64,000 nucleotides of DNA from Paenibacillus assamensis DSM 18201 (GTDB taxonomy: Bacteria > Bacillota > Bacilli > Paenibacillales > Paenibacillaceae): contig NZ_KE383837.1 of assembly GCF_000422445.1 (NCBI RefSeq), forward strand, positions 186,001-250,000, in the 5' to 3' direction. Positions 1 through 52,933 of this stretch are shown in pieces. Below the pieces are notes generated by a model. That model saw only the letters and a list, made by a program, of their open reading frames with translations. It ran no database searches and was not told the origin of the DNA. Numbering within the stretch: position 1 is the stretch's first letter; every line of letters begins with the position of its first letter. A program made the position numbers and the translations under genes.

Positions 1-585
1 CATCAGTTGAGCGAGCTCCACATACGATAATTGGGTGGCCAGCATAAAGCCGATTATAAATAGTACGATTATTAACAACTTCGTCCCTAACGCCCCAAAT
101 AATGCAAAAACGAGGCAATATAGTGCTGCCCCTATATACCCGCCGCTTATGTCTTTGTTCCACATGTCACTAGCCGTTCCTGTTTCGGCAGCCGTAATTA
201 GTTCTTCCTTCATCGTGTTATGTATTGCTTGAAATATACTTCCCGCGCTAATGTCGTCTGCTACTGGAAGCAGTCGCATTTCCACTGCACTCATCGTGCT
301 CATCATAGTGAATCCGATAAGGATAATTAACAATCCTGACTTTCTTGCGCTCCAACCAGCAGGCCATTGCCGTTTGATCATCACAGCTAAGCCTACATAA
401 ATAAGGACAAGCGGTATTACAAAATAAAACTTTCCAAGCAGTAATCCGAACAGCTTGGACAACGCTCGTCCGAAGGCTGCTCCGCCGGAAAGCGCAATGA
501 CAGAGCTCGTTATGAGCAATATACCGTATATTTCAAATTTCAAGCTCTTGCTTAAAGACTGCTTCTTACGTTTTCTTCGGGCCAA
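1..585 (-). CDS. spoIIIE: DNA translocase SpoIIIE/FtsK, N-terminal part (cut by window edge)
   Basis: This frame runs open from a TTG start at 585 to the window edge, giving 195 residues; the C-terminal motor lies outside. The start is set by a strong Shine-Dalgarno sequence, GGAGGTG at 593-599, eight bases upstream. The visible part begins with a very basic stretch (MARRKRKKQSLSK) and then four or five hydrophobic segments joined by short loops. This is the membrane anchor of the FtsK/SpoIIIE family, whose hexameric ATPase pumps chromosomal DNA through the division or sporulation septum. The family call rests on the anchor plus synteny: in B. subtilis spoIIIE follows dpaAB-asd-dapG-dapA-rnjB-tepA-ylzJ, as here. 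Whether it acts in sporulation, vegetative division or both cannot be told from this part. It has its own promoter with a LexA-like site. Confidence 0.85.
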   Translation of the reverse strand, partial: MARRKRKKQSLSKSLKFEIYGILLITSSVIALSGGAAFGRALSKLFGLLLGKFYFVIPLVLIYVGLAVMIKRQWPAGWSARKSGLLIILIGFTMMSTMSAVEMRLLPVADDISAGSIFQAIHNTMKEELITAAETGTASDMWNKDISGGYIGAALYCLVFALFGALGTKLLIIVLFIIGFMLATQLSYVELAQLM

Positions 586-606
586 TTGTTGTCACCTCCA
601 CATGCC

Positions 607-635
607 ATTATATCACAGAACAACCGTTCTTACTA
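607..635 (-). promoter_or_regulatory. Promoter of spoIIIE/ftsK, extended -10 type
   Basis: On the minus strand a perfect TATAAT (607-612) is preceded by TGA (613-615), giving an extended -10 element. The -35 position at 17-base spacing (630-635, TAGTAA) matches TTGACA weakly, which is usual for extended -10 promoters. The predicted transcription start is near 600, so the leader would be only about 15 bases, just enough to hold the ribosome binding site. Confidence 0.6.
617..630. promoter_or_regulatory. LexA/DinR (SOS) operator-like palindrome
   Basis: The 14-mer AGAACAACCGTTCT has intact GAAC-N4-GTTC half sites, the core of the Gram-positive SOS box (consensus CGAACRNRYGTTYG). It differs at the two outermost bases and one central base. 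It lies directly between the -35 and extended -10 elements of the spoIIIE/ftsK promoter, where a bound repressor would block polymerase. Site and position are seen; LexA binding is inferred. Confidence 0.5.
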
Positions 636-677: not shown

Positions 678-749
678 CATTATAAATAGCGTAGTTATCA
701 TGAACAACCGAAGCTTAATCGTTCTTTTCAATCTACGCTATTTATAATG
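678..749. repeat. 17-bp perfect inverted repeat between ylzJ and spoIIIE
   Basis: Arms 678-694 and 733-749 (CATTATAAATAGCGTAG and its exact complement) enclose a 38-base loop. The hairpin lies just after the ylzJ stop codon and upstream of the spoIIIE promoter, so it may end or protect the ylzJ transcript. It has no T-run on either side, so it is not a standard intrinsic terminator. Confidence 0.6.
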
Positions 750-754
750 AAGTT

Positions 755-982
755 TTACATATTATTTATTTGTAGAACAGTCCCTGGTTGAAAAGCAGGA
801 TGTAAAAAGTCTTGTATCCCACATGGCTGCAAAATTCTTTCTACGCGAACATAATCATCATTAAGGCGTTGGACAAGCAGTAATCGCCCTTCCCACACCA
901 TTTCGTGGAATATTTGCTGTGCCTGCTCCTGAGACTCGTTTTTGAATATTTCTTCTTCAGGTATTACAGTATATAGAGTCAT
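755..982 (-). CDS. ylzJ: YlzJ-like small protein
   Basis: A 75-residue soluble protein starting MTLYTVIPEE, the typical opening of the YlzJ family, whose function is unknown. An in-frame ATG six bases further upstream (988) overlaps the G-rich ribosome binding site, so I take the ATG at 982, which has six-base spacing from GGGGGG. It follows tepA after an 11-base gap, and the tepA stop codon is part of its ribosome binding site. The tepA-ylzJ-spoIIIE order is the same as in B. subtilis, which supports the name. No catalytic motif or membrane segment is visible. Confidence 0.8.
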   Translation of the reverse strand: MTLYTVIPEEEIFKNESQEQAQQIFHEMVWEGRLLLVQRLNDDYVRVERILQPCGIQDFLHPAFQPGTVLQINNM

Positions 983-993
983 TAACATCCCCC

Positions 994-52139: not shown

Positions 52140-52933
52140 TACGAAGCTCCCCCCTTAGCAAATAATCGTAGTAACTCGTCCAATGCCTGAAACATTTTAC
52201 TGAATAAATGCTCCATCACGTATACCATGCTTGGCATCGTGAGCAGCAGTACGACAAGACCTAAAATAATTTTTAAAGGTATGCCGATGACGAAAATATT
52301 AAACTGCGGCGCTGTTTTCGCAAGAAAGCCGAGGGCTACATCCGCGAGAAACATGGAAACAATCAATGGTGCTGCAATTTGTAACGCGATAATAAACGCC
52401 TGAACAAATGTAATAACTACGAAATTCATAATGTTCCCATTTTGAATTTGGCCAAAAAAAGAGTTGCTATCGATAGGAAGCCACTGATAACTTTTCATAA
52501 TGGCATCTATCAAATAATGATGACCATTCATTCCTAAGAACAACAAAATCATAAATATGTATTTGAAGTTACCAGTGATAGGGGAACTCATCCCCGTAAG
52601 TGGGTCAACGACGTTCGCGATACCGAATCCAATTTGCATATCCACGAAGGAACCAGTAATTTGAACGATTGTAAAAAACAACTGCGCAACGAATCCAATC
52701 AGCAAACCTATCATAATCTCACGAATGATGTAGGTCACATATACTCCGTCCATCGGCACTGATATTCCTAACCCAAATAGTAGATAGGCAATTAGGCTTA
52801 TACTAACAGCGAGCCCGACTTTAAAATGATTCGGCACACCTCGGGAAGAAAAGACAGGCGCAGCGACAAAGAAAGCTGTAATTCGACACAGTATGAGCAA
52901 AAAAACAGGGAACGCCTGAGCTAACATGTCCAT
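52139..52933 (-). CDS. fliR: Flagellar export protein FliR
   Basis: A 264-residue membrane protein with about six to seven hydrophobic segments, part of the FliP5-Q4-R1 export channel. Seen: FSSRGVPNHFKVGLAVSISL, IGFGIANVVDPLTGMSSPI and FLAKTAPQFNIFVIGIPLK. The ATG has no strong ribosome binding site, and the fliQ stop lies 11 bases upstream, so translation probably depends on fliQ. Confidence 0.95.
   Translation of the reverse strand: MDMLAQAFPVFLLILCRITAFFVAAPVFSSRGVPNHFKVGLAVSISLIAYLLFGLGISVPMDGVYVTYIIREIMIGLLIGFVAQLFFTIVQITGSFVDMQIGFGIANVVDPLTGMSSPITGNFKYIFMILLFLGMNGHHYLIDAIMKSYQWLPIDSNSFFGQIQNGNIMNFVVITFVQAFIIALQIAAPLIVSMFLADVALGFLAKTAPQFNIFVIGIPLKIILGLVVLLLTMPSMVYVMEHLFSKMFQALDELLRLFAKGGAS

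Follow-up and report, generated by a model that had tools for sequence, protein, structure and literature searches.

A predicted LexA operator in the ftsK/spoIIIE promoter of Paenibacillus assamensis and its genus

SOS control and chromosome translocase genes

The operator of Bacillus subtilis-type LexA (DinR) is given as GAAC-N4-GTTC in the accessible text of a study of LexA in C. difficile, whose main text mentions neither ftsK nor spoIIIE (PMC4234289). In E. coli, ftsK is identical to dinH and is controlled by the SOS response, according to the part consulted of PMC4080785. A regulator has also been predicted for this gene in a spore former, C. thermocellum, where the accessible text assigns ftsK/spoIIIE to Xre_0026 and does not include it among the named LexA targets (PMC8457756). 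SOS control of spoIIIE/ftsK in any spore former was not found in the accessible parts of the literature searched (including PMC8457756, PMC4080785, PMC9380542, PMC3989709, PMC12795462, PMC4234289, and PMC3584850), a search in which subscription literature was thinly covered and which does not prove absence.

The locus described here lies in a stretch of 64,000 nucleotides from Paenibacillus assamensis DSM 18201, positions 186,001 to 250,000 of contig NZ_KE383837.1 (hereafter, the window). It resembles the B. subtilis LexA regulon in the operator core, in a lexA gene divergent from a yneA-like gene, in the presence of a recA operator, and in the overlap between operator and promoter, but differs from it, in comparison with the C. 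difficile study, in having ftsK/spoIIIE as a predicted target. With E. coli ftsK it shares a chromosome translocase gene with an SOS promoter, which is predicted in our case, whereas the operator is GAACN4GTTC instead of CTGTN8ACAG, the lineage is a different one, and the gene is located beside ylzJ and a ClpP-like gene. An exact E. coli-type SOS box at ftsK was discarded, since the single exact match to CTGTN8ACAG in the window is found at position 52876, far from ftsK. Given the different operator and lineage, describing the predicted control as convergent with that of E. coli appears reasonable.

The ftsK/spoIIIE promoter block and its conservation in the genus

The 919-aa protein exceeded the cut-offs for PF17854 (FtsK_alpha), PF01580 (FtsK_SpoIIIE motor), and PF09397 (FtsK_gamma), and its N-terminal region with four transmembrane segments matched PF13491 at 23.0 bits (cut-off 23.1). 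The gene runs off the low end of the window, downstream of ylzJ and of the ClpP-like gene, which we take to be of the TepA type. One FtsK-family match was found in the source genome by protein search, and matches were obtained in 118 of 118 genomes, 19 of them belonging to the same genus; upstream regions were compared for 62 of the 118, and the named relatives of the protein were headed by Paenibacillus and Cohnella. Approximately 80 nt after ftsK there is a likely cell-wall hydrolase gene with a peptidoglycan-binding part (L025:490-1248), presumably SleB-like as judged by eye, which may share its transcript. The features of the promoter region are listed in Table 1.

Table 1. Features of the ftsK/spoIIIE promoter region, in window coordinates.
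Feature	Position	Strand	Basis or remark
ftsK/spoIIIE, 5' part, TTG start at 585	1..585	-	whole protein 919 aa, L025:1327-4086
ftsK ribosome binding site, GGAGGTG	593..599	-	sequence reading
-10 TATAAT; extended -10 with TG at 615-614	607..612	-	sequence reading; TATAAT served as alignment anchor
Putative LexA-type operator AGAACGGTTGTTCT (palindrome, core 618-629)	617..630	-	conserved in 19/19 genus genomes; 16.0 bits with the lexA/recA matrix
Weak -35-like TAGTAA, 17 nt from the -10	630..635	-	3/6 matches to TTGACA
Strong hairpin between ylzJ and the ftsK promoter	678..749	-	-27.9 kcal/mol, z -6.2; no U-run after it
ylzJ, upstream gene	755..988	-	Pfam YlzJ

Positions 617-630 of the plus strand read AGAACAACCGTTCT, and the palindrome core at 618-629 matches GAAC-N4-GTTC with 0 mismatches. 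In coding-strand order, the region consists of TAGTAA (635-630), GAACGGTTGTTC (629-618), TGTGA (617-613), TATAAT (612-607), GGAGGTG (599-593), and TTG (585). The claim of the earlier note that the palindrome sits exactly between the two promoter elements of ftsK/spoIIIE, the weak -35 and the extended -10, was borne out by this reading of the minus strand: the operator starts directly after the -35, occupies the -35/-10 spacer, and leaves 5 nt before TATAAT, an arrangement shared with lexA. The promoter was absent from the list produced by a simple sigma-70 promoter scan, presumably because its -35 is weak. No Rfam match was obtained in the window at gathering scores, and the ftsK promoter region gave no match in the plasmid collection.

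GAACN4GTTC occurs once in the 64 kb, with 0.96 occurrences per window expected from shuffles, and GAACN4GTTC-N5-TATAAT had a single window match at up to 2 mismatches (it has 0), with 0.56 in shuffles at the same tolerance. Throughout the genome, 69 sites were counted in 5.03 Mb vs 117 for the mirrored pattern, so that GAACN4GTTC shows no bulk enrichment. Out of the 15 sites whose loci were examined among these 69, 10 fall inside open frames longer than 120 aa; the remaining five are the ftsK site, two sites beside genes of 134 and 125 aa, one beside a gene that we take to be RarA-like, and one without a gene nearby. At the locus of the 125-aa gene (L017), a Y-family polymerase gene (NCBIfam) lies behind. 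A perfect AGAACAAGCGTTCT beside a presumably RarA-like gene and a small gene on the opposite strand (L023, G000:C1:844340) is possibly another LexA target.

A chance origin of the ftsK site is thus possible from the window alone, given the 0.96 expected, and was rejected on conservation: the site is set above chance by its retention in every one of the 19 genus genomes. Indeed, the promoter has the form GAACGG[T/C]TGTTC-TRTGN-TATAATG in all 19, with the operator exactly 5 nt from TATAAT (GAACGGYTGTTC) and the centre of the 12-mer being GGTT in 11 genomes and GGCT in 8. The T and the G of the extended -10 are each present in 19/19, and ATAGKAA precedes the operator in 18/19 (G004 deviates), its positions, except the variable K, being kept in 18 or 19 genomes. 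Over the 19 genomes, mean pairwise identity reached 0.957 in the operator 12-mer; in the 66 nt upstream it was 0.283 with the anchored sequences and 0.411 once these were aligned. Conservation in close relatives had been set beforehand, in the earlier note, as a refutation test, and the proposal was not refuted, every genus member retaining the perfect palindrome with its distance from the -10 unchanged while the DNA upstream diverges.

Such a pattern could also arise if the block were a conserved promoter spacer or -35 region, palindromic by accident and without operator function. The ATAGKAA and TRTGN flanks are nearly invariant too, and the palindrome is often matched by chance, as this explanation would have it. 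Nevertheless, both half-sites are invariant in the 19 genomes although promoter spacer sequence is usually free, there is no invariant column among the 135 aligned positions of the 66 nt upstream, and a similar block is found at lexA, all of which make an accidental palindrome highly improbable.

The operator-promoter block is the sole conserved block within 90 nt upstream of TATAAT in the genus alignment, and the operator-bearing promoter is therefore probably the main ftsK promoter. This same observation weighs against the alternative that LexA binds with a small regulatory effect, most ftsK transcript coming from a second promoter or from read-through of ylzJ. The hairpins between ylzJ and ftsK point in both directions: terminator-like hairpins with T-runs just upstream are clear, by eye, in 7/19 genus members, against read-through, whereas they are weak or doubtful in 6 and absent by script in another 6, and the hairpin of the source genome has no T-run, in favor of it. 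On balance, we consider that a transcript arising mostly from elsewhere is unlikely. The hairpin at 678-749 is long and A+T-rich, its tip again holds GAAC...GTTC, and it is possibly a transcription barrier.

Likeness to the lexA control block

LexA was identified in the source genome by TIGR00498 (258 bits, cut-off 111). Its gene is divergent from that of a YneA-like LysM protein (NF010723, 49.8 bits, below the cut-off of 60), and five LexA-type sites lie between the two genes. A set of five was likewise recovered from the lexA region in 18 of the 19 genus genomes, and a set of four in G017 (260 nt examined). The recA site of the source genome, CGAATGTATGTTCG, has one mismatch to GAACN4GTTC, and the recA operator is kept in 19/19. 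The nearest operator of lexA in the source genome, GAACGGTAGTTCTATGGTATAAT, shows the same 5-nt spacing as that of ftsK, GAACGGTTGTTCTGTGATATAAT, and this ftsK-like spacing is found at lexA in 17/19 genus genomes. Furthermore, the exact 12-mer GAACGGTTGTTC also constitutes one lexA-region site in another genus (L224).

A matrix was built from 256 lexA-region and 19 recA sites, leaving ftsK out; it is partly circular, as its training sites were chosen at one mismatch or fewer to GAACN4GTTC. With it, the ftsK sites of the genus scored 14.7-16.0 bits, the training sites themselves having a median of 15.6 and the background being 1.2-2.3e-5 per position. The LexA-like character attributed to the palindrome in the earlier note was upheld by these scores, obtained from lexA and recA sites only, and by the spacing shared with the nearest operator of lexA.

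The combination of operator and -10 proved to be specific. Across the genus, GAACN4GTTCN{3,12}TATAAT matched 89 times in 19 genomes (mirrored control, 11), with 19 of these matches at ftsK and 17 at lexA (assigned by place) and 18 associated with an ArpU-like gene block (assigned by sequence). Among six further loci examined, Y-family polymerase genes lie downstream of two, a 130-aa gene downstream of one, and no convincing gene at three; at L274 the Y-family polymerase gene is behind a 125-aa gene (family tested), and the L267 site is directly ahead of such a polymerase gene. The stricter GAACN4GTTCTRTGNTATAAT matched in 360 of 394 family genomes, with zero matches in the control (table by eye). 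A count by eye gave two matches in 16 genus genomes and one in the other three, 35 in all, and no more than one in any of the 375 others; in the 7 other genomes comparable by place (G035, G036, G041, G056, G063, G066, and G069) the single match was at lexA in every case. As these matches are specific, 35 in the genus and at most one per genome elsewhere, the ftsK promoter of the genus carries, judged by its sequence, a control block of the lexA type.

The ArpU-like block (G000:C2:527042-527071) has a conserved LexA-type operator and TATAAT in 18/19 genus genomes (L250, L252). Its gene encodes approximately 160 aa and was checked in 2 of these 18 genomes; the one protein tested scored 33.8 bits (family cut-off 43.1), and a domesticated phage gene under SOS control is possible.

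Taken as a whole, the palindrome is very probably an operator of the SOS repressor LexA, by which ftsK/spoIIIE would be repressed and, upon damage, induced together with lexA, yneA, and recA. From the site, its position in the promoter, its conservation in the genus, and its likeness to lexA, all of them read in the DNA, we infer LexA binding, repression, induction, and a benefit to the cell; for ftsK, repression by LexA and induction by damage are likely. LexA bound between the -35 and the -10 is predicted to block RNA polymerase at the ftsK/spoIIIE promoter. DNA damage, acting through RecA and self-cleavage of LexA, would derepress ftsK along with lexA, yneA, and recA, and chromosomes still spanning a septum once recombinational repair is over might then be cleared or resolved by the extra translocase. 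In Staphylococcus aureus, SpoIIIE foci became more frequent on RecU depletion (44 per cent of cells, up from 10 per cent), and chromosome dimer resolution is said to require SpoIIIE or SftA, according to the accessible part of PMC3584850. More chromosome pump during the SOS response would therefore be physiologically sensible.

ftsK promoters in other genera

Outside the genus, many ftsK promoters carry elements of the GAACATATGTAC and GAACATTTGTCC types; in several genera the degenerate GAACATTTGTCC lies 8 nt from the -10, and in genera g6 and g13 GAACATATGTRC and GAACATAGGTRC lie approximately 17 nt from it. The pattern GAACN4GTNCN{5,20}TATAATN{4,14}RGRGGTG was detected in 226 of 394 genomes (control, 2). 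Counted by eye, it is present in 18/19 genomes of the window's genus (g1), where G004 misses it owing to a longer gap before the ribosome site, and in 73/75 of g6, 100/100 of g13, 6/6 of g4, 3/3 of g3, 1/1 of g11, 4/7 of g9, 15/51 of g17, and 4/22 of g2; no match to this pattern was found in g5, g7, g8, g10, g14, g15, g16, and g19, and g12 and g18 have a single match each, away from ftsK. Out of 30 loci tested, 28 encode ftsK and two (G140 and G170) do not, the others being judged by sequence likeness.

The half-site in these genera raises the question of which factor reads it. In g6 every match has GTAC or GTGC and never GTTC, the same holds for g13 among the matches listed, and GTCC is found in several other genera. 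An element so well kept (73/75 and 100/100) that lacks GTTC in this manner would suit a different regulator with a LexA-like site, either a paralogous S24 repressor or an ftsK-specific factor, for which GAACATANGTRC of other genera would be the same factor's site. Direct 11-bp repeats containing ATARGAACA in G062, G055, G025, and G042 would also suit such a factor. Against it, the site of the window's genus matches the lexA operator in both motif and spacing, and the GTGC/GTAC variant also occurs at one lexA-promoter site, in g4 (4/4), g11 (1/1), and g17 (1/4, with GTTT in two others), this same site being GTTT in g2 (3/3) and g3 (2/2). Moreover, the GTRC variant AGAACATANGTRC was rejected as a multi-gene motif, having been found in 1-3 places per genome, one of them ftsK, with a total of 9 vs 9 for the control in four genomes. 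Control of the genus promoter by such a regulator thus seems improbable, and LexA is the preferred reading there; the GTRC element of other genera may be either a weak LexA site or the site of another factor.

The 11-bp repeats, RATARGAACAN, are present in two to four direct copies immediately ahead of the ftsK -10, in place of the palindrome (L083 in G062, L045 in G055, L063 in G025, and L064 in G042). These repeats, from genera g5 and g8, resemble boxes for a factor that binds at intervals of one helical turn; LexA does not explain them.

When each of 17 other genera (two of them outside the family) was represented by a single genome, the one with the lowest handle, the matrix had a match at window p < 0.05 in 8 of them, vs 1 in the reversed control. 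Among named relatives, 67 of 80 loci were used, 13 being dropped for a contig-end position or a match that stopped short of the N-terminus, and were scanned from 250 nt before the gene to 20 nt inside it. A match of at least 11 bits was found near ftsK in 9/67, six of them in Paenibacillus or Gordonibacillus, two in Laceyella, and one in Listeria, the best being AGAACAAATGTTCC in P. contaminans (L110). Reversed windows gave 0/67 (best 11.0, just under the line), as did windows 1.5 kb further up. No promoter block of the g1 type was seen by eye in the 105 nt inspected for each of the 67.

Since the other genera examined mostly have either a degenerate GAACN4GTNC at other spacings or no element, the control block is specific to the genus, and LexA control across the whole family is uncertain; if ancestral, LexA control is predicted to be weak or lost in the other genera. 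The reversed and upstream controls at 0/67 argue for family-wide control and the missing GTTC argues against it, which leaves it, in our estimation, somewhat short of an even chance. Only tentatively, then, can SOS control of ftsK/spoIIIE be proposed as a trait of the Paenibacillaceae as a whole, independent of E. coli dinH, in which the affinity for LexA would be adjusted lineage by lineage (the genus with its full GTTC palindrome, the others with weak GTRC/GTCC half-sites at other spacings) and chromosome segregation, perhaps including filling of the forespore, would be gated by DNA damage. The series of lineages with a full, a half-degenerate, or an absent palindrome offers a natural experiment on operator strength. 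If the prediction holds, the sole FtsK-family translocase found in the source genome would be an SOS gene, as in E. coli, despite the different operator, lineage, and gene neighborhood, and would represent a convergent solution providing more pump when repair crossovers form and septa may close on DNA.
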